Shown one piece after another: positions 94-20,111 of a DNA stretch of 21,237 nucleotides. A model generated the notes under the pieces. The model searched no databases. It was not told where the DNA came from and saw only the letters and a program-made list of their open reading frames with translations. The translations under genes and the position numbers were made by a program. The first letter of the stretch is position 1, and the number at the start of each line of letters is the position of its first letter. Source of the DNA: a virus; IMG/VR virus record IMGVR_UViG_3300031227_000512, positions 1 to 21,237 of that record. One strand, written 5' to 3'.

Positions 94-160
94 TCTGTTC
101 TCCGAAGTCTGTAATCCTGGCACAGCCTTTCTGTGCTTTGTAGGATACTTTGGGCTTCAT
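2..160 (-). CDS. Possible small ORF overlapping the RusA start out of frame
   Basis: A 52-codon ORF starts at ATG 160, overlapping the TGA of the preceding gene as ATGA, the coupling used throughout this region. It begins MKPKVSYKAQKGC. Its last 31 codons share DNA with RusA in another frame, where the sequence becomes Asn/Ser/Lys-rich and unconvincing. Either only the first part was ever meaningful, or the ORF is chance. No function is suggested. Confidence 0.3.
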   Translation of the reverse strand: MKPKVSYKAQKGCARITDFGEQNEDNNTRNTSSKGKTESKSDGQVRSNLHST

Positions 161-690
161 TTGATGCCTTTTCTCTTCAATTTTTGAAGGATCTTCAGCA
201 GTTTACTTTGTTCTTCTTTGTTGAGTTCCTTGAACACTGGCTCCCTGATTTCTGCTTTGGTCCTGAGCCATACGTTTATGAACCATATTTCTTTTGTGTC
301 CTTGTCTGCGATTGCCTTCCTGGCATTTGTCAGCAGTCCTTCGTGTCTCATCTTGATGTAGTCTTCTGCTTGCTTCTTTTCACTCTCTTCAGATATTGGT
401 GTGAGCTTATCAATGACTTCCTGGCATTCCTTTTCCTGCTTGGCCATCTTCTCTTTGTAATCTTCAGATTGTGCATCCTTGAACATCTTCAGGGCTTCTT
501 CATTCTGCCGGATCAGACTTTTGAATGTATTTGCCTTCCAGAATAAGTGTGTTGTTTGTTTCTGGATCACTTTAACATCCCCATTTGCCTGAACTTCGTA
601 TGAGATATCTTCATCGATTACTTCCTGCTTGTATGGCTGCGGCTTCTTCTCTTCTTCCTGTTGCATCTTCTGCATAATTTCTCCACTCAT
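157..690 (-). CDS. Unknown hydrophilic helical protein, 177 aa
   Basis: I do not recognise this protein. It is strongly charged and mostly helical, with long Glu/Lys/Gln runs consistent with coiled coil in the second half, and has no cysteine pairs for metal or membrane segments. The start is supported by the leader AAGGGGGAAGCAAAAA just upstream, a strong SD shared almost exactly with the gene starting at 1647. Its ATG overlaps the stop of the preceding winged-helix gene (ATGA), so the two are probably translationally coupled. The context is the early DNA-metabolism block. Confidence 0.85.
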   Translation of the reverse strand: MSGEIMQKMQQEEEKKPQPYKQEVIDEDISYEVQANGDVKVIQKQTTHLFWKANTFKSLIRQNEEALKMFKDAQSEDYKEKMAKQEKECQEVIDKLTPISEESEKKQAEDYIKMRHEGLLTNARKAIADKDTKEIWFINVWLRTKAEIREPVFKELNKEEQSKLLKILQKLKRKGIK

Positions 691-1100
691 TTTTTGCTTC
701 CCCCTTTGACTTTTGACTTCTTTTCTGGCCAGACTGTTCCCCTTGCTTCTGAATCACTTAATCCTTCAGAAATTAGTTGATCATATTCTTTCTTCTTTTC
801 AATCTCTTCTGTTGTCTCTGGATCTGTTGGTCCTTCAGGTTCCTTCCAGTTTTCATCCAAATCCATAAGCTCTGCCAGCTTCATAGTGATTGCTTCGCCT
901 TTCTTTGTCAACTTGATCTGATAGTCTCTTCCTGGCTTATCCTTGTCAATGATTCCTTCTTTGTGCCACTGCTCCAATACTGTCCTTAAATGACCGGCAT
1001 TGGCATCTACTCTTCTTGCAAGTTCATCTATTTGTGTTGTCTCTCCGGTCATGCTGACCAAGAGTTTAGCATATTTTTGGTTATATACAAATCTCTTCAT
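687..1100 (-). CDS. Winged-helix (MarR-like) DNA-binding protein, 137 aa
   Basis: Residues about 8-75 look like a winged helix: a first helix (NQKYAKLLVSM), a helix-turn-helix (IDELARRVDANAGHLRTVLEQ) and a wing with IIDKDKPGRDYQIKLTKKG, as in MarR-like archaeal regulators. The C-terminal half is acidic then Lys-rich and probably disordered. A GTG at 1109 could also start the frame, but the SD AAGGAGC lies right against it. ATG 1100 is ten bases from that SD and is preferred. It sits directly downstream of the histone gene. A role as transcription regulator is inferred from the fold only. Confidence 0.8.
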   Translation of the reverse strand: MKRFVYNQKYAKLLVSMTGETTQIDELARRVDANAGHLRTVLEQWHKEGIIDKDKPGRDYQIKLTKKGEAITMKLAELMDLDENWKEPEGPTDPETTEEIEKKKEYDQLISEGLSDSEARGTVWPEKKSKVKGGSKK

Positions 1101-1131
1101 GTTATTCACGCTCCTTTGTTTTTTAGAGACT

Positions 1132-1317
1132 TTAAAGGTCCCTGCACATTATTGTTGTTCTTCCGTTCTCGACTGCTCTTTCACAGGCCTTCTCTATTAT
1201 TGACTCTACTTCCTTTGTCAAAGCACTTGCTAATTTTGAAGATACATTTAATGCTTTTCCTTCCTTTGTTTTTGCAAGCTCAATAATCTTACTTGCCACT
1301 ATTAATGTTTTTACCAT
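1132..1317 (-). CDS. Minimal archaeal histone-fold protein, 61 aa
   Basis: The layout matches a single histone fold: helix 1 (IVASKIIELAK), a long central helix (about residues 25-50, SKLASALTKEVESIIEKA) and the hallmark loop GRTTI followed by the start of helix 3, CRDL. Archaeal histones carry the same A-x-x-G-R-x-T-(I/V)-x-x-x-D-(I/L) pattern. The chain ends right after the Asp-Leu, as in short DUF1931-type histones of DPANN and other archaea. A six-residue KTKEGK insertion separates helices 1 and 2. Family members dimerise and bind or wrap DNA. Here it may compact viral DNA or modulate host chromatin (inference). ATG 1317 follows GAGGCG, with a TATA-like box about 25 bases upstream. Confidence 0.78.
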   Translation of the reverse strand: MVKTLIVASKIIELAKTKEGKALNVSSKLASALTKEVESIIEKACERAVENGRTTIMCRDL

Positions 1318-1334
1318 ACGGACTTCGCCTCGTT

Positions 1335-1347
1335 GATTTATATGAAA
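1335..1347 (-). promoter_or_regulatory. Possible TATA box for the histone gene
   Basis: On the minus strand the sequence TTTCATATAAATC lies about 25 bases before the histone ATG. That spacing would give a transcript starting at or very near the start codon, so a leaderless mRNA is possible alongside the SD-like GAGGCG. This is pattern recognition only. Confidence 0.35.
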
Positions 1348-3059: not shown

Positions 3060-3397
3060 TAAAAATTCCTCAACACTACGTTTGTGTCAGGCATATCTCC
3101 GCCTGGTGGTTTAGGCCCTGTTTCCATCAGCTTGGGTGCGATTCCACTATCGATGATCTCTATCTGTTGGCAGTCGAATGTCTCTGCTGCTTGTACTTTT
3201 AGGTCTTTGCCCAGTCCTTGTGGCTTTACTATGTACTGCACGCATCCGTTCAGGAATATCACTTTGCCTGTTGCTATCCCTACGAATCCTGTCACTCTGT
3301 CCTTCAGTCTGAATCCCAGTGGTATGTTCTTTAGGTCCATTCCGCTGAAGTCATCCTTCACTACTTTCTTTCCCTTCTTTGCTTTTATTTTTTTCAT
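3059..3397 (-). CDS. Phage-conserved small protein with SH3-like core, 112 aa
   Basis: The segment LKDRVTGFVGIATGKVIFLNGC followed by VQYIVKPQ and, later, TFDCQQIEI matches a small protein I recall from many tailed phages ("D-x-V-T-G-F-x-G-I-A...LNGC" family), whose function is not established. Gly and alternating hydrophobics suggest an SH3-like barrel. The N-terminus is very basic and the C-terminus Pro-rich. The start follows GGAGATACGAGACC, a variant of the shared GGAGNNGATACGA leader. Family recognition is from memory. Confidence 0.75.
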   Translation of the reverse strand: MKKIKAKKGKKVVKDDFSGMDLKNIPLGFRLKDRVTGFVGIATGKVIFLNGCVQYIVKPQGLGKDLKVQAAETFDCQQIEIIDSGIAPKLMETGPKPPGGDMPDTNVVLRNF

Positions 3398-4987: not shown

Positions 4988-5869
4988 TCACTTTTTCTTG
5001 ATTTGTGTGTCCTCTGGGTAGTCTTCTCCTTTGAAAACTTTGAGGCCTATTCCATGCATCGCTATTGCTTTGGCGAAGCATCTTTGTATGTTTTTGTTTA
5101 TTAACATTACATCGAGTTCTGTGTCTTTTGCTGCTTGGTTCTTGTTGGTCATCACTGGTAGGTGTACTGTGTGTGTGATTCCTTTGACCTTCACACTCAC
5201 TTTGACAAATGCTCCCATCTTATCATCGTTTATGTAAGGCATCCCTGTCTTCTCATCTTCATGCACATGGTATGTCGCTGTTGGATGTAGTGACTTTAGT
5301 TTGCTCCAGACTTCTGCCCAGCTTGCATATGTCAACTTCATTGGTCCCTTCACTGCTGTCTCGACTTTTAGTTGTTCCATCTCCTGGAAGGTCTTCTTGT
5401 CGTACTTGTCTCTGTCCATTTCATCCTTCATCTTTCCAAGCATTCCGAGAAGTGCTTTTGGTCCCAGTCCATCTTCAGGTCCGTATTTCATATCACTCAT
5501 GTCTTCTCCGTTTTCAGGCACATGACATGGTCCTTCTTCTTTTTCTTGAGACTTTGCTTCGTCTTCTTCAAGCACTTTTGGATCCGGTTCTTCAGGATCC
5601 TCTCCATCGATGATCTGTTCATCTTCGATGTCTTCTACTTCCACTGCCTCTTCTTCCCCAGCTTCTAATAAGACCATGCTGCTGAACTCGGTCTTCTTTC
5701 CTTGCACAAGCATTATCTCTACTTGCTTGCCTTTGTATTCTTCTTTGACCATTTCCTTGGCTTCATCTGTTGCCGGATTGTACCATGTCTCAGGTTGGTC
5801 TTCAAACTTACAGCCTTTTGCGCCACTTTTTGCTATGTACTTCAGAATTCCTATTTTGTTTTTTTCCAT
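4988..5869 (-). CDS. sak: Sak-type (DUF1071, Rad52-superfamily) ssDNA annealing protein with extra N-terminal domain, 293 aa
   Basis: Residues about 179-293 match the DUF1071/Sak pattern: TYASWAEVWSKLKSLHP, MPYINDDKMGAFVKVSVKV, LPVMTNKNQA, then NIQRCFAKAIAMHGIGL and FKGEDYPED. Such proteins coat and anneal single strands in phage recombination. Residues 1-65 (from MEKNKIGILKYIAKSG through VEIMLVQG) form a separate beta-rich, possibly OB-like domain, joined by an acidic linker of about 85 residues. The frame extends upstream to 5965, but the promoter P1 lies in that part. ATG 5869 with GGAGTGATACGA before it is the real start. The exonuclease two genes upstream is the expected partner. Confidence 0.85.
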   Translation of the reverse strand: MEKNKIGILKYIAKSGAKGCKFEDQPETWYNPATDEAKEMVKEEYKGKQVEIMLVQGKKTEFSSMVLLEAGEEEAVEVEDIEDEQIIDGEDPEEPDPKVLEEDEAKSQEKEEGPCHVPENGEDMSDMKYGPEDGLGPKALLGMLGKMKDEMDRDKYDKKTFQEMEQLKVETAVKGPMKLTYASWAEVWSKLKSLHPTATYHVHEDEKTGMPYINDDKMGAFVKVSVKVKGITHTVHLPVMTNKNQAAKDTELDVMLINKNIQRCFAKAIAMHGIGLKVFKGEDYPEDTQIKKK

Positions 5870-5932
5870 TCGTATCACTCCATTTGTTATATTTTGGGGT
5901 TTTGTCCCATAGTTCATATGTGTAATGTCTAA

Positions 5933-5959
5933 CTTTATAAAAGTTTCGATTTGTACTAC
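5933..5959 (-). promoter_or_regulatory. Promoter P1 (copy 1 of a 27-bp repeated promoter)
   Basis: On the minus strand this reads GTAGTACAAATCGAAAC followed by TTTTATAAAG. CGAAAC is a BRE and TTTTATAAA a TATA box. The motif is 24/27 identical to P2 (9455-9481) and 23/27 to P3 (11228-11254). A start of transcription about 25 bases downstream would give a leader of about 40 bases before ATG 5869. The upstream AGTAC block, beyond what BRE/TATA needs, may bind a regulator. Confidence 0.75.
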
Positions 5960-6075
5960 TCCCATATGATTTTGTAACCTGTAGCGGTTATATTTCCTTC
6001 CTCATCATAGTCATCTTCATCAATTATTTCTTTGACTCTTAGTGGTTTTACTGTTCCTTGTTTTTCAGTTATCAT
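5956..6075 (-). CDS. Acidic microprotein, 39 aa
   Basis: The chain begins MITEKQGTVKPLRVKEIID and ends in a strongly acidic stretch EDDYDEEGN before KIIWE. The ATG lies 11 bases inside the end of the exonuclease gene and the TAG stop lies within promoter P1. Acidic patches of this sort are found in DNA mimics and in SSB-like tails, but that is speculation. Confidence rests on its position between tightly packed genes. Confidence 0.5.
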   Translation of the reverse strand: MITEKQGTVKPLRVKEIIDEDDYDEEGNITATGYKIIWE

Positions 6076-6958
6076 GGTCTTCAATCCTTCCTGCGTCAAC
6101 CAGTTCTGTGTGTTGGTTGCAGAACTTTCTGGCTTGGCAGTATCTGCATCTTGCGACCTTTCCTGGCCTGTGTTCGATGTGGTATGTTGAATTCAGTGTG
6201 TCCTTGTGTTCGATTGCTGCAGCTTCGGTCTTGTGAACTTTCATTGCTCTCTTGCCGCCATCCTTCTTGATCGCCCATGATTCTCCGGAGGTCCATAACT
6301 CTTCATCATTACACTCTGGCATGTCTCCTTGGTCCATTGCTACTGTTTTTTCAAATAGGTCCATTCGCTCTCCTATGTACTTGAGCGTCTCTTCATCTCC
6401 CCAAAGGTCTATCTCTTTTACCATGATCCTGGTTTGTGGGTATTCAGGATCCTCTTTTGCTTTCTTCTGACTCCAGTCTGTGAAGATCAACCATATCTTT
6501 GCTTTCTGAACCACTGTGTAGTTGTTCTGGATCGCCAGCCATCTGTAAATGCTGAGCTGTTTCTTGTAGTCTTCATCCCTGCTTCCGTATATGATTGTCC
6601 ACACTGATGTACTTTTTACATCGATTAGTTGCCATCGTTTGTCACTGATTTCCTTCAGGATATCATATTTCCCTGAGATAATCTTGTTCTTCACTGCCTT
6701 CTTGAGTCTCTCTTCCTGCTTGCAACCGGTCAGATTGACCTTCTCTACTGAGTCATGGATCGCTGTTCCGTATCTGCTTGCGATTAAGTCTTCCACATCC
6801 ATTTCCAGTCTGTCCCAGTTCTGCTTCTTCAGTGCATAGGCCCTTGGTGGCTGCATCAGTGTTGTTGCGCTCAGTGTGTTTTCATCGTAGTCGTATTCAT
6901 CATTCTCCAGCCATTCCACTACGAAGTCCGGGAAGTTTCTCTTGTTTGTGTATTTCAT
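6065..6958 (-). CDS. PD-(D/E)XK (RecB/Cas4-like) exonuclease, 297 aa
   Basis: Motifs in order: GTAIHDSVE with H68, GKYDIL with D99, QLIDVKS with D113 and K115, and QLSIYRWL (Q134-x-x-x-Y138). Together these are the RecB-family nuclease core. The C-terminus has C271-x2-C274-x5-C280, the spacing of the C-terminal Fe-S cysteines in Cas4/AddB proteins. A fourth ligand is not obvious (C79 or C216 are candidates). In phages such an exonuclease resects double-strand ends to feed an annealing protein, here the Sak protein encoded just downstream. Start 6958 follows GGAGAAAAAAGA and overlaps the preceding stop. Confidence 0.85.
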   Translation of the reverse strand: MKYTNKRNFPDFVVEWLENDEYDYDENTLSATTLMQPPRAYALKKQNWDRLEMDVEDLIASRYGTAIHDSVEKVNLTGCKQEERLKKAVKNKIISGKYDILKEISDKRWQLIDVKSTSVWTIIYGSRDEDYKKQLSIYRWLAIQNNYTVVQKAKIWLIFTDWSQKKAKEDPEYPQTRIMVKEIDLWGDEETLKYIGERMDLFEKTVAMDQGDMPECNDEELWTSGESWAIKKDGGKRAMKVHKTEAAAIEHKDTLNSTYHIEHRPGKVARCRYCQARKFCNQHTELVDAGRIEDHDN

Positions 6959-9534: not shown

Positions 9535-10332
9535 TCAATTACCCCCCTTTATAGAGGAGATAGCCTCTTTGTTCTGTGTCAATTTCCTGATCGCTTCCTC
9601 GGTCTTGTCTCCCCATCTCTCTTTCAGGAAGTCCATCATCATCTTCATCCTGGTTTCTGAGGATCTCAATCCTTTTCTCATTCGTCTGAATTCTTTTGCT
9701 TTGTTCTTGCATTGTCCGCCGCAGAACTTCTGCTTCCTTGGTCCTTTGTTTTGCCAGACTGTTTCCATGATATCCCCACACCACCAACATCGATATCCCC
9801 CTTTGATTTTTCTGTGATTCTGTTTTAGTTTGATATCCATTGCCTTGAGTTTCTTGCTTACTGCTCCTTGGTCCAGTTTTAGTTCCTTGGCTATTTCTGC
9901 TGCAGAGATTCCGGTCTGATATAATCTCTTGATCTCCTTCAGATATCCTGTATGTGTCTTGGTCTTGTTTTTGAATGGGAAGTATAATGGTTCAGTGCAG
10001 TGTGATTTATTCATTGTCACATTATGATCTCTGAGGATCTTACGGATATTCTCTGGATTCATGTTGAGCATCCTTCCGATTCCAATTGAGCTTCTTCCGT
10101 TCCAGTAATGTTTAAGGATCCTTTTTATCAGCTTCATTCTTCCGGGATGTTTTCCGCTATGTAGTGGTTCGAGTCCGAGTCTTACTCTTGTCTTTGCGAT
10201 TGTACTCACAGATATTTCGAATGTCTCTGCCATCGTTTTTTGAATCCCATCACGATCTGCGCTGTTCCATTGTTGTATGAATCTCTGGCCATCAAGTGTG
10301 TGTTCCTGGAATCTCTTGGTTGAGTACATCAT
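9535..10332 (-). CDS. Multi-HTH DNA-binding protein with C-terminal zinc finger, 265 aa
   Basis: Three helix-turn-helix-like units are visible: about 15-55 (ETFEISVSTIAKTRVRLGL), 66-105 (SSIGIGRMLNMNPENIRKIL) and 128-168 (GISAAEIAKELKLDQGAVSK). A zinc module follows with C182-x2-C185 and C204-x3-C208 (RCWWCG...KFCGGQCKN), similar to treble clefs in nuclease-associated proteins. The rest is basic. It is likely a sequence-specific DNA binder, perhaps a regulator at the early/late junction. I saw no nuclease triad and no inverted repeats. The gene is coupled to its upstream neighbour by an ATGA overlap. Confidence 0.75.
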   Translation of the reverse strand: MMYSTKRFQEHTLDGQRFIQQWNSADRDGIQKTMAETFEISVSTIAKTRVRLGLEPLHSGKHPGRMKLIKRILKHYWNGRSSIGIGRMLNMNPENIRKILRDHNVTMNKSHCTEPLYFPFKNKTKTHTGYLKEIKRLYQTGISAAEIAKELKLDQGAVSKKLKAMDIKLKQNHRKIKGGYRCWWCGDIMETVWQNKGPRKQKFCGGQCKNKAKEFRRMRKGLRSSETRMKMMMDFLKERWGDKTEEAIRKLTQNKEAISSIKGGN

Positions 10333-10667: not shown

Positions 10668-10937
10668 GATTATTAATCTTTTCTAATTCATCAGTATCTT
10701 GTTGTTTTAGCTCTTCTTCTTTGCTTTTCTTCTTTCTTTTCTTCTTTTTTTTTAGTCTTGCATGTATTGCAATCGTAATATTTAAATAGAAAGAGCATCT
10801 TACCTACAATTGAACCTGGAAGTTCATTGGTTGTTGGTGCTCCTTCTTTATTCTTTTCTGCATTATTAACTCGATTACTAATTTCTTTTTCACGATTTTG
10901 AAGGTCTGATTCTTTTTAAAATCATCGATTAATGTAT
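10668..10937. other. Gene-poor AT-rich region with only degenerate ORFs
   Basis: No ORF with a normal start and SD fills this stretch. It holds a pyrimidine-rich run on the plus strand (about 10712-10753), a TATA-like box at 10907-10923, and two short minus ORFs. One is a 29-codon GTG ORF (10804-10893), positioned where a leaderless transcript would start. The other is a 35-codon ORF (10691-10798) reading MLFLFKYYDCNTCKTKKKEE. The latter frame stays open upstream to 10919 without an initiator, so it may be a decayed gene. It separates early and late blocks and could also hold a regulatory or replication site. Confidence 0.5.
10907..10923 (-). promoter_or_regulatory. TATA-type promoter element shared with the HNH gene
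   Basis: The 17 bases GATTTTAAAAAGAATCA on the minus strand occur identically upstream of the HNH endonuclease gene at 18832-18848. The central TTTTAAAAAG is TATA-like. Transcription would start near 10890, at a GTG. Confidence 0.45.
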
Positions 10938-12753: not shown

Positions 12754-14997
12754 TCAACTGTCTATATGAAATTTAAGTTTTACTATTCCTTCGCAATAAT
12801 CTGCTGTTGCACTGTTTGGATCTATCCTGACTCTCCAGTATCCTGTTGCGTCTGGATATGTTCCACTGTCTGTGATATCGACATCGCTTCCGATCGTTGC
12901 TGCGCTTACCACACTGTGTTTGTTTACCCATGCACTTCCGTTCCAAAAGTCCAGATAAATTGTGACCTCACTCGAATTAACCGATCCTGATTCTGAGATA
13001 TCACTTCCGATGCTTATGTGGTCCAGGTCTGTTGCATTAATATCGTAGCTTCCATCTGGATGGTCGTGACTTTCAACTGAATAAGTGCCATCTGCGTGTG
13101 TGTGTGATGCTGTCTTAAGTGTTCCGTCTGAATGCAAGTGACTCACTGCATTATAAGTTCCTGCTGCATGTCCATGTGAGGCTGCAGCATAGGATCCATC
13201 TGAGTGTGTGTGACTGCCATGTGTGTGTGAATATATCATATTGCATGTTCCCCACCACCAATCGACTGCTCCATTATTATCAAAAAATCTTACATATTCA
13301 TTCTCCCAAGAGCCTTCGCTACTTGTTCCACCGCTTCCTGCATAATAACTCCCATTTGCTAATGAATAAGAACCGAATGTTCCGCTTGCTCCACCGCTTG
13401 TTGAGTATGCCAGATTGATTGTTTGACTGACTCCTGTTGTATTGTAGCAATAAGTGCATGCTGCACCAAGTGAGAATGAAACTGTTCCATATACATCATC
13501 GAATGCTTTAGTCCTTGAATATTGAGCATTGATTGTATCTCCTTCTGTGTTTCCGGCATAGGAATTGTTTCCGGATAGGCTGTTCGGAGTTGTTGAACCG
13601 CTTGTTCCGCTTACTCCTGGTGCTGTGCTTCCTGATGTGTCTTCAACTGCAGGCGCTATACTTCCACTGCTTCCTGAGACATCTGGTTCTGTTGTTGCTG
13701 AAGTGTTTTCTACATCTGGAGCATCGGTTCCGCTTGTATTCTGAACTTGAGGATCGCTTCCTGTGAAGCTCGCTGATCCTGCTGTTTGTCTGAATTCCTG
13801 CAATTCATAGTCCACTGTCATTAAATTGATTTGTAGGTTGTCTGCTTCGTCTTTGAATTGTGTCGGTACAAAAAAACCTATTTTTAATGGGTATGAATTT
13901 TTAACATTGATTCCACTTCCCCAACTGTTCCAGATTGTGGCTCCTTGCATATAAGTTGTGTCCTGGAGTGACTTCTTTGTAATCTGTGATAGGATCCTGT
14001 TTCTTGATCGCATCATCTGTTTGTATGCCGGATTTGTCACTTGGACTGATAAGAATTGGATTCCGCCTCTGTATCCTCTTGTGATTCCTACTACTCTTAC
14101 TTCTTCGTTTGCCAGGTCTTTGTCTACTGAATTTAAAGAGACATGATCTCCACTTACCAGGCTTTCATTCACTGTGTTTATATCAAAATCATATATTTTT
14201 GTTGGATCCTTGGTCAGTGCCAGTTCCGCTGTTGCAAGTGTTGCGGCTTGTGCGTCTGAGATTATGGTCCTGTCAGATACTATTCTTGTGATTGATCCGT
14301 ATGCTGATATGCTCGTTGCATCTGAATCTGTTGCAGTGATTTGATTATCTCCGTCTCCTTTGCCTCTGACTATGATTATATTTCCAGCTGGAAATCCATG
14401 AGTTACTCTTAAATTTGACATCTCGACTCCATCGTTGAATGTGTTGACAACTGTGGCGCTTCCTTTGTGGTCCAGGATATCAATTTCCAGATTCACATAG
14501 TCTATTCCGATATCTTGTGCTGTTATCTTCGTTAAACTTCCAAGTGCATTATAAATGCTTGATGTTGTGTCTGCTCTGAAGTCAATGTCACTTCCTGTTT
14601 CGATTGTTCCTGCTGAGAAGTATGTGCTTTCTCCTATGATCGCTGTGGCTATTGTTGCGCTTGCTGTTGCTTGCCATGGGCTGTTTGCATAAGTTCCGAA
14701 TTCTTTTCCTGCTCTTATTTCATATCCGCTTGCATGAACATCCATTGCTCCTGCATCTAAAAAGTCCACCATGTCAATAAGCCCATAGAATGCTCTTGTT
14801 CCGTCTTTCTTGATTTCGAGAATTGAACCGACATTGATTAAATTTCTTGCTGCCAATACGGATCCACTGAACTTGATTTGAGCTTCGTTTACTTCATTCA
14901 GATTGTCTGTGTATTGGAATCCGATATCAGGTTCCAGGGATCCAGTATTTCCGCTTGAATCTGTTATGTTAAATGTGAAATAACTCAATCTGCCCAC
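12754..14997 (-). CDS. Tail hub (baseplate-like) protein with histidine-rich fibre repeats, 747 aa (GTG start)
   Basis: The N-terminal about 330 residues resemble hub proteins of the gp27/gpD type: FTFNITDSSGNTG, then GSILEIKKDGTRAFYGLID, and later strands with NESLVSGDHVSLNSV and VGITRGYRGG. Residues about 409-476 are Ser/Thr/Gly/Pro repeats (TSGSTAPGVSGTSGSTTPN) acting as a spacer. Residues about 590-655 hold six or so units of the type S-H-x-H-x-D-G-(S/T)-Y, like metal-binding HxH motifs in phage fibres. The C-terminus is a beta domain, perhaps the receptor-binding part. The start is GTG 14997, overlapping the preceding stop; TTG 14988 is an alternative. Confidence 0.82.
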   Translation of the reverse strand: MGRLSYFTFNITDSSGNTGSLEPDIGFQYTDNLNEVNEAQIKFSGSVLAARNLINVGSILEIKKDGTRAFYGLIDMVDFLDAGAMDVHASGYEIRAGKEFGTYANSPWQATASATIATAIIGESTYFSAGTIETGSDIDFRADTTSSIYNALGSLTKITAQDIGIDYVNLEIDILDHKGSATVVNTFNDGVEMSNLRVTHGFPAGNIIIVRGKGDGDNQITATDSDATSISAYGSITRIVSDRTIISDAQAATLATAELALTKDPTKIYDFDINTVNESLVSGDHVSLNSVDKDLANEEVRVVGITRGYRGGIQFLSVQVTNPAYKQMMRSRNRILSQITKKSLQDTTYMQGATIWNSWGSGINVKNSYPLKIGFFVPTQFKDEADNLQINLMTVDYELQEFRQTAGSASFTGSDPQVQNTSGTDAPDVENTSATTEPDVSGSSGSIAPAVEDTSGSTAPGVSGTSGSTTPNSLSGNNSYAGNTEGDTINAQYSRTKAFDDVYGTVSFSLGAACTYCYNTTGVSQTINLAYSTSGGASGTFGSYSLANGSYYAGSGGTSSEGSWENEYVRFFDNNGAVDWWWGTCNMIYSHTHGSHTHSDGSYAAASHGHAAGTYNAVSHLHSDGTLKTASHTHADGTYSVESHDHPDGSYDINATDLDHISIGSDISESGSVNSSEVTIYLDFWNGSAWVNKHSVVSAATIGSDVDITDSGTYPDATGYWRVRIDPNSATADYCEGIVKLKFHIDS
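13035..13230 (-). repeat. Histidine-rich HxH coding repeats in the tail hub
   Basis: About six tandem units of 11-12 codons encode S-H-(T/G/L/D)-H-(S/A/P)-(D/A)-G-(S/T)-Y. In T4-type fibres HxH clusters bind metal in trimers. The DNA shows matching tgtgtgtg-like runs on the plus strand. Confidence 0.75.
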
Positions 14998-17343: not shown

Positions 17344-18312
17344 TTAATAACTTGTGATATCATCACGTGCCACCAGGCTTGTGAATGCATCTGCTGCGTA
17401 TACGACATCTACATTTGTTACTCCTTCCAGGTTGGTCGAGGCTACTGCTCCGAGTACATAAAAGGCTGCAAATGTCATTAAAAGTTGATCATTTCCTGTT
17501 CCATCTTTGTCGATTAATAGTGTGTTTGTGCCTGAGACTACTGTTCCTGCATCCCAATGGTCGAACATTGTCTTGTCTTTGATGTTGACGTTCATTCGGC
17601 CTGTAATCCTGAAGGTCTTGGGTATTGGTTCTCCCAGCTTCTCATCGTATGAAGTGTTGCAATACCTTGAGTCATTCTCATCGATGCCATTGTCAATTGT
17701 TATCTCTCCATTGTTGACTTCTTTGATTTCTGTTCCGCCAAGTGTCCACTTGACCATTCTGTACTGGAATGGTGATTTTGTGATGTTTCCTGCGGTTATT
17801 GTTGATACTGAGGATCCACCTGATACATCTTGGCCTACGCAGTTCATTGCTACTTGCATGAACCCCTCTGTGCCCTCTCCTGTGGCCTTCTGGAAGGATA
17901 TTGTTGCAGACTTGACTACATTGCCGACTACTGTCAGAACATGCGGTGTAGTGTGTCTCTTGGCCCATTCAAGGTTATAAGATAATATTGCCGCTCTTTC
18001 TGTGAATGTGTGGATTTTAGGGGTTGTTCCTGTATCTGCAACAGCCATCAAATACTTGAGCCATCTCCAGTTGACTGGTACGAAGTTCATCGTATATGGA
18101 AGTGTCTTTGGTCCTTTTACTCTTCCCTGGACATTCCTATTGTCTGCTCCTGCAGTCAGTTTTTCTTGCCATCCTCTGGCCCAGTCAGGTTCAATTGTAC
18201 AATTCAATCCTACAATCTCTCCGCCTGTCATTGTTCCGCCTGTTCCGTAGCTCGTTTCCACGATCCAGGACATTCTTTCTCTTTTTCCAATAAGGAACTC
18301 AGAGAAGGACAT
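17344..18312 (-). CDS. Major tail tube protein, 322 aa
   Basis: The start MSFSEFLIGKRERMSWIVET and the repeated YGTGGTM/W-rich beta pattern, with two similar beta halves (one around PKTLPYTMNFVPVNW, one around KTFRITGRMNVNIKDK), resemble two-domain tail tube proteins of non-contractile tails. Position before the chaperones fits. Tube proteins form stacked hexameric rings around the tape measure. ATG 18312 has GGTGATTAC upstream. Earlier in-frame ATGs at 18327/18324 have no SD. Confidence 0.78.
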   Translation of the reverse strand: MSFSEFLIGKRERMSWIVETSYGTGGTMTGGEIVGLNCTIEPDWARGWQEKLTAGADNRNVQGRVKGPKTLPYTMNFVPVNWRWLKYLMAVADTGTTPKIHTFTERAAILSYNLEWAKRHTTPHVLTVVGNVVKSATISFQKATGEGTEGFMQVAMNCVGQDVSGGSSVSTITAGNITKSPFQYRMVKWTLGGTEIKEVNNGEITIDNGIDENDSRYCNTSYDEKLGEPIPKTFRITGRMNVNIKDKTMFDHWDAGTVVSGTNTLLIDKDGTGNDQLLMTFAAFYVLGAVASTNLEGVTNVDVVYAADAFTSLVARDDITSY

Positions 18313-18347
18313 TGTAATCACCATCATTTAATTTTTCTTTATTCATG

Positions 18348-18821
18348 TTACTCACTCTCCAAATTTATATTTTTGTGATGCACACTCATATGGCATCTAT
18401 GACATAATGCAATTAAATTTTTAATCACATTATTTGTTCTATCGCCATCAATATGATGAATGTCGATGTTTGTTTTGTTGTTATTCACAGTCTGTTCCAC
18501 TCCACAAATTTCACATTGTGCTGTTTCAATTTTCCCACGATATCCACCATCAACATAATTATAGGGATATTTACTGCTTTCAGACATTTGCTTCTTAGTT
18601 TCTTCATTATGTTTCTTTCCGAGCATACCTTTGTGGTTTCTCTTGATTGCTGCAATCCTTTTTTGTTCTGTTGTTTCATCGTGCTTATGTCCTTTTTTGT
18701 ATTGTCCCTTGTTTGGTCTTTGTGCACTACATTTCTTACTGCAAAATCTTCTATTTCTCCAATCCTCAGCTTCGAATTCAGTTCCACATCGTTCACATCT
18801 ATATTTTTGTATCATACTCAT
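18348..18821 (-). CDS. Free-standing HNH homing endonuclease with NUMOD3-like linker, 157 aa
   Basis: Residues C9-x2-C12...C27-x3-C31 form an N-terminal zinc finger. Residues 44-82 (GHKHDETTEQKRIA and GMLGKKHNEETKKQMSES) are a NUMOD3-like DNA-binding linker seen in homing endonucleases. The HNH core has C103-x2-C106, IDIHHIDGD (H122, H123, D125), N130, N135, and C140-x2-C143-H. It cuts DNA at specific sites and promotes its own spread. It sits in the same strand between tail terminator and tail tube genes, with its own promoter-like element, so it was probably inserted into a working module. Confidence 0.9.
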   Translation of the reverse strand: MSMIQKYRCERCGTEFEAEDWRNRRFCSKKCSAQRPNKGQYKKGHKHDETTEQKRIAAIKRNHKGMLGKKHNEETKKQMSESSKYPYNYVDGGYRGKIETAQCEICGVEQTVNNNKTNIDIHHIDGDRTNNVIKNLIALCHRCHMSVHHKNINLESE

Positions 18822-19658: not shown

Positions 19659-20111
19659 TTATGTTGAAGCATTAACTTTTCCGAAGACTTCGTTTCTGTA
19701 TATCTTCAGCCATTTGTATTGTACTTCATGAAGCGCCGGTCTGAAAAAGGGTTGAGCAGGTGTGCCGAACTTAGAAATCTTGGCCCTCACTGCGAAGGCT
19801 GCGGACTTGTCACCGAGGACACGCCCAGCCCAACCGATTAAGGGGGTAATTGGGACATAGTGTGGCTTCGTTCCGTACTCGACATAGACTCCGTACTCCA
19901 CGCCATCTGATAGAGTATATTCTTTTGCTCCGAACTGTAGCGGTGTCAAGTGTATCCTGTTCTTCAGGTTTCCAGTATCTACTGGTGCTTTGAGCTTTGC
20001 GATCTCTTCCATCTTGGTCATCGCTTTCCAGAGGACTTTCTTCATTCCTTCTACTGTTTGATTCTTAGAATTGTTTAGGTTCGGCCCTTGGATACTGAAT
20101 TTCATTTCCAT
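19659..20111 (-). CDS. HK97-gp10-like neck/tail protein, 150 aa
   Basis: The motif LKAPVDTGNLKNRI near residue 45, then VEYGVYVEYGTKPHY and AQPFFRPALHEVQYKW, is the signature of the HK97-gp10 family (A-P-V-D-T-G-x-L ... Y-A/G-x-Y-V-E-Y-G-T ... P-A-x-P-F-x-R-P-A). These proteins act at the head-tail joint. The length is as usual for the family. ATG 20111 overlaps the preceding TAA (TAATG). Confidence 0.88.
   Translation of the reverse strand: MEMKFSIQGPNLNNSKNQTVEGMKKVLWKAMTKMEEIAKLKAPVDTGNLKNRIHLTPLQFGAKEYTLSDGVEYGVYVEYGTKPHYVPITPLIGWAGRVLGDKSAAFAVRAKISKFGTPAQPFFRPALHEVQYKWLKIYRNEVFGKVNAST

Follow-up and report, generated by a model that had tools for sequence, protein, structure and literature searches.

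A face-to-face histone, very probably captured from Nanoarchaeota, in a tailed archaeal virus

The DNA stretch analysed here (the window) is a fragment of 21,237 bases from an IMG/VR virus record. The genes around a small histone gene share its strand and include those for a tail tube protein, an HK97-gp10-like protein, a tape-measure-like protein, a Sak annealing protein and an exonuclease, which identifies the source as a tailed virus. The principal features are:

157 to 690, minus strand: gene next after the winged-helix gene, in an order conserved among relatives
687 to 1109, minus strand: winged-helix protein by predicted topology, downstream neighbour of the histone gene, conserved in the virus group
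1317 to 1132, minus strand: histone ORF of 61 codons (61 amino acids) with an ATG start
1326 to 1331, minus strand: candidate Shine-Dalgarno-like GAGGCG, 8 nt ahead of the histone ATG
1337 to 1343, minus strand: TATA-like element ATATAAA ahead of the histone start codon
1357 to 1647, minus strand: gene conserved in the virus group, upstream of the histone gene here and adjoining the winged-helix gene where relatives have no histone
4988 to 5965, minus strand: Sak-type single-strand annealing protein of a recombination module (PF06378, 3.5e-32; phrog_659)
6065 to 6958, minus strand: PD-(D/E)XK exonuclease (phrog_2139, 4.4e-71; PF12705)
17344 to 18327, minus strand: tail tube protein (PF18906, 8.6e-13), the probe for finding relatives
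19659 to 20111, minus strand: HK97-gp10-like tail completion protein (PF04883; phrog_5)

An earlier, sequence-only reading of this DNA had placed the histone gene beside a winged-helix regulator, and the predicted topology of the 687–1109 product, H-b-H-H-b-b (mean pLDDT 68), is that of a winged-helix protein, with profile searches giving only sub-threshold HTH matches. Judging from its neighbours, the histone gene would be an early gene. The elements GAGGCG and ATATAAA were read from the sequence; the latter is a possible promoter of the histone gene's own, with a chance match quite possible in this AT-rich region. Amid the tail genes lies an HNH/NUMOD3-type endonuclease gene (18348–18821), probably a homing endonuclease, with homologues in some relatives only (L098, L090). 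The large tail protein at 12754–14997 has a His-rich repeat run (SHTHADGTY-like) close to its C-terminus, perhaps a receptor-binding region. The relative L098 also carries a TnpB-like transposon nuclease (5737–6882).

The histone ORF encodes the protein MVKTLIVASKIIELAKTKEGKALNVSSKLASALTKEVESIIEKACERAVENGRTTIMCRDL, which ends in ...NGRTTIMCRDL; the plus strand across it contains many stops. Searched against the PDB by phmmer, the protein matched HBb (1.9e-5) and the archaeal face-to-face (FtF) histone HTkC (9F2C; 5.7e-5), and weakly HLp. A histone-profile match, on which the sequence-only reading had made its claim depend, was obtained with an alpha3-histone HMM (1.7e-23, a score mildly inflated by the inclusion of the window sequence itself). 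The Pfam profile PF00808 stayed under the cut-off (E 0.14) and alone misses the gene; the sensitivity of the Pfam and PHROGs profiles is too low for this protein. The AlphaFold model, a single chain built on a 23-sequence alignment, reached a mean pLDDT of 83 and has helices at residues 8–17 and 29–50. In a comparison with PDB folds, alpha3 histones take the nine top places (HBb, HLp and HTkC chains; TM 0.83–0.92), followed by matches at TM 0.4–0.67 that include the nucleosomal histones. Foldseek E-values came to no better than about 1e-3, which is normal for a chain of 61 residues, and the case for a histone therefore rests on sequence and fold agreeing. Phmmer, HMM, tree and fold all confirm the virus-encoded minimal histone of 61 residues.

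The histone-fold helix order with a truncated third helix, claimed earlier, was also found in the model. The truncation is no peculiarity of this protein, however, since it defines the alpha3/FtF class (PMC11390915). We are nearly certain that the ORF encodes an FtF histone, a type formally defined by a closed tetramer with two dimer-dimer contacts (PMC11390915). Alpha3 histones are defined by an alpha3 cut down to 3–4 residues, together with a shorter alpha2, and the conserved set of the FtF logo comprises R48, N52, R54, T56 and D61 (Schwab et al. 2024, PMC11390915). In the window histone, alpha2 spans residues 29–50, the chain ends 8 residues past R53, and, in our mapping to the logo, the entire signature is kept as R47, N51, R53, T55 and D60. 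This covers both the R-D clamp or RxTxxxxD motif (R53-T55-D60) and the dimer-dimer contact residues R48/N52 of the logo (here R47/N51), which are invariant in the host family also. The alpha1 lysine (logo K16), strongly conserved in FtF histones, is I12 in the window histone; it is given as conserved and probably DNA-binding, outside the FtF definition (PMC11390915).

Other assignments were ruled out. HBb-type bacterial dimer histones are without R48 and N52 (PMC11390915), whereas the window histone has both equivalents and a tree position away from HBb. Membership in the phage-histone subclass (Schwab 2024) is contradicted by the lack of a C-terminal helical domain and the presence of the RxTxxxxD motif. 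The DUF1931 family, suggested by the earlier reading, proved to be a different one, made of pseudodimers with two histone folds per chain, and the window protein has a single fold in 61 amino acids.

The FtF histone HLp forms a tetramer wrapping ~60 bp and contacts DNA through A13, S14, K15, K21, T27 and G29 (PMC12701072). The equivalents A8, S9, K10 and K16 are kept in the window histone; its loop residues differ. By analogy, the window histone most likely forms FtF tetramers and wraps about 60 bp, which is the best answer, from homology only, to the earlier question of wrapping versus bridging.

A search with the tail tube protein yielded 13 IMG/VR relatives. In seven relatives (L138–L143 and the complete G033:C163), the homologue of the 1357–1647 gene abuts the winged-helix homologue with gaps of ~2–70 bases and no histone; the gene is therefore an accessory insertion in the virus studied here. 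When the virus loci were searched in six frames with the HMM, the window histone alone came up (1.7e-23; next best 0.49), and relatives that are close to complete (38.6 and 39.6 kb) also had no histone. The IMG/VR viral contigs, scanned with the histone and with two alignments, one mixed and one of the host family, contained no second virus with the same histone type, and phage records searched for the histone gave one unconvincing match only. As the histone occurs in one virus only, its role cannot be essential for the virus group. The contig is metagenomic, and a host fragment might have been misjoined into it. However, viral genes flank the histone on both sides at a junction that is gene-free in the relatives, so that two mis-joins would be needed, and no host genome matches closely (best 72%). 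We regard such a chimera as very improbable.

FtF histones were found in 325 of the 371 Nanoarchaeota genomes. A DNA search with the window led to a histone gene in genome G044 (72% DNA identity over 139 bp, E 2e-9); the family of G044 thereby superseded the Woesearchaeota L002/L004, the first best match (48–49% identity), as the source. This family has the histone in six of its seven genomes, with the same long first loop and 58–72% protein identity to the window histone, the nearest host gene being 72% identical. Among 307 genomes of the order, no histone match at E 1e-13 was present outside the family. The phylogeny against host-group histones, which the earlier reading had suggested, united the virus and the Nanoarchaeota family of G044 in one clade (support 100/99, despite only 61 columns) and ruled out a bacterial origin. 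In G044, the histone gene lies among genes for EF-1 alpha (EF-1A), uS10 and Glu-tRNA synthetase and a CorC-like gene (products named from sequence); a position amid translation genes marks it as a chromosomal gene. Capture of the viral histone from this host family is thus very probable.

A six-residue insertion noted earlier corresponds to the long first loop, and its size depends on the comparison: ~5 residues against Woesearchaeota L002/L004, 1 residue against HTkC and 1 residue only (T17) against the virus's own host family. The long loop is mostly inherited from that family, with one residue virus-specific.

The tail tube protein, searched against the 371 Nanoarchaeota genomes, had one strong match, in G033, a member of the same family whose histone the virus carries. 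Three of the order's 307 genomes (G028, G033, G556) matched the capsid protein of the virus group. Two Nanoarchaeota bins contain complete-looking genomes of the same virus group: G033:C163 (L135, L136) of 36.2 kb with a ~147-bp end overlap, and G556:C21 (L181, L182) of 34.7 kb with a ~139-bp end overlap. Their end overlaps and lack of host flanks rule out integrated proviruses as proof of the host, and since these contigs are free and terminally overlapping, a binning error is possible. The host assignment draws on binning and on the histone, two independent lines in agreement. No match to the virus group appeared in 156 genomes of the phylum Aenigmatarchaeota, in a search without positive control. 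A whole-window DNA search for CRISPR spacers gave many short matches, largely in the low-complexity tract at 10679–10756, and none readable as a spacer. This tract has short DNA matches in many Nanoarchaeota genomes and is a source of false host links.

Relative to the host copies, the window histone has a pN of 0.21–0.30 and a pS of 0.69–1.0, values that compare the virus with host copies at saturated synonymous sites. With pN well below pS, the protein is constrained. This bears on the idea of a passenger, a recently acquired host gene without function for the virus. Its presence in one virus only, with none in other IMG/VR contigs, would fit a passenger, and the constraint could stem from the host branch; against it stand the intact ORF, the low pN and the retention of every signature residue, and we consider it quite improbable.

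The six host sequences share 35 invariant positions, and the viral protein departs from them at six: R10K, K12I, K36E, K46E, V56I and K59R. Dimer and tetramer contact positions derived from HLp are largely identical in virus and hosts, which makes mixed assemblies plausible; a Fisher test for viral changes avoiding contact positions was not significant (p = 1). At one tetramer contact, the window histone has E50 in place of a neutral residue. K12I removes an alpha1 lysine thought to be DNA-binding and, together with E50, may render wrapping weaker than in HLp.

Such changes could be those of a subunit poison, with assembly contacts kept and DNA contacts weakened, whose mixed tetramers would loosen host chromatin or relieve the silencing of viral genes by the host histone. 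The host-invariant K12, K36 and K46 are replaced by I, E and E, while the virus retains R47, N51, R53 and L61. At position 12, each of the 118 other alpha3 histones compared has a basic residue (117 K, 1 R, no I); among the bacterial members of this set, the search pattern admitted only K or I there. However, glutamate is a frequent and unremarkable residue at 36 and 46 of other FtF histones (L002, for example), and position 12 is absent from the HLp–DNA crystal contacts (PMC12701072). Moreover, S9, K10 and K16 are kept, the net charge of +3 lies inside the host range of +3 to +5, and the argument draws on a single sequence. We judge a poison unlikely. The same low probability applies to the captured histone as a dominant modifier, a K12-less subunit with all its assembly contacts retained that would enter host FtF tetramers and weaken or re-time chromatin during infection; if true, this would be the first example from DPANN archaea.

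The viral histone could instead act by itself, coating new viral DNA to shield or compact it and perhaps entering the capsid. Tailed viruses load their heads by a terminase motor, which counts against this, and the seven relatives share the tail and early genes but do without the histone, which is hence not needed for packaging. HLp and HTkC show that one type of subunit can make up an FtF tetramer (PMC12701072, PMC11390915), the window histone retains fold and signature, and giant viruses package nucleosomes (PMC9145170 and citations). Purely viral chromatin seems rather unlikely to us.

Mixing with the host histone is the likeliest mode, because the contact residues match those of the host histone, a protein that nearly every possible host has. 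The viral protein would fold as a histone-fold handshake dimer, two viral dimers would pair into a closed FtF tetramer, and the tetramer would bind DNA without sequence preference and wrap ~60 bp. During infection, the virus would supply additional, slightly modified copies of the main protein with which the host wraps its DNA, and these would assemble with host subunits on the DNA of both host and virus. The mixed subunits might alter chromatin packing or transcription, and the viral histone would not be a virion component; a fixed capsid role is less likely as the relatives do without the gene. Tetramers, wrapped DNA, mixed subunits and timing are all inferred for the viral histone, beyond what the analysis shows: the histone fold, the FtF signature, the origin in the host family, the accessory insertion and purifying selection relative to the host copies. 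The mixed-subunit chromatin role is a tentative proposal, to which we give somewhat less than an even chance, and the whole explanation, a captured FtF histone that mixes with host subunits to shift chromatin, lies just on the probable side. A host-derived histone may let the virus alter DNA packing during infection.

The protein belongs to an already known family, and its setting in a tailed archaeal virus is unusual. It resembles HTkC from Thermococcus kodakarensis (9F2C; PMC11390915) in fold, size and truncated alpha2/alpha3, and archaeal FtF histones of this type in the RxTxxxxD motif, the dimer-dimer R48 and N, and the lack of tails. It differs from them in being virus-borne, in the isoleucine at logo K16 and in its longer first loop. 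With the G044-family histones, it shares 58–72% identity, the long first loop and the pattern KTLIVAS...NGRTT-M-DL, whereas these are one residue shorter, invariant at K12, K36 and K46, and chromosomal in G044. HLp of Leptospira perolatii (9QT0-9QT2; PMC12701072) is likewise FtF, with A-S-K, the second alpha1 lysine and the tetramer-network N and R; unlike the window histone, it is bacterial and has an N-terminal tail, and its contacts K54 and R59 are G and M in the viral protein. Phage histones (PMC11390915) also have an alpha3 histone fold and occur in tailed viruses, but they carry a further helical domain for tetramerisation at the C-terminus and lack RxTxxxD, the reverse of the window histone. 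Histones of Borgs (PMC12660748) and giant viruses (PMC9145170) are similarly borne by mobile DNA or viruses, but of other elements and hosts and of nucleosomal or multi-histone types.

Viral histones are known mainly from eukaryotic giant viruses, and for tailed viruses the searched papers contain only the 'phage histone' type. Tailed proviruses of Woesearchaeales have been reported with histones unmentioned (PMC11705971), and in the searched literature, which covered few subscription journals, no tailed archaeal virus was found described as carrying an FtF histone. In the present case, the donor family is identifiable by sequence and the histone-less relatives provide a natural before/after comparison. 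The viral and host histones form a pair of small natural proteins for testing what a prokaryotic virus gains from a histone.

Different FtF histones were found in further IMG/VR contigs. L145 (IMGVR_UViG_3300035698_002964; 23.8 kb), a tailed-virus contig judging from the sequences of its terminase-, capsid- and tail-like genes, encodes one at 3164–3325 that is nested with Woesearchaeota histones. L144 (IMGVR_UViG_3300009506_000024; 63.9 kb) has one at 9968–10162, placed beside another Nanoarchaeota histone. These separate placements, both on long branches, suggest repeated capture. L145 also has distant portal and other genes in common with the window's virus group. More IMG/VR contigs (L146–L152) carry FtF or alpha3 histones; several are 168–190 kb, GC-rich and putatively viral. 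An archaeal-type FtF histone at 869–1039 of L017, a contig labelled Peregrinibacteria, reflects a binning error or gene transfer. Three Nanoarchaeota contigs (G298:C32, G177:C52, G325:C12) contain ORFs of 119–131 amino acids with two FtF matches each, apparently fused double FtF histones.
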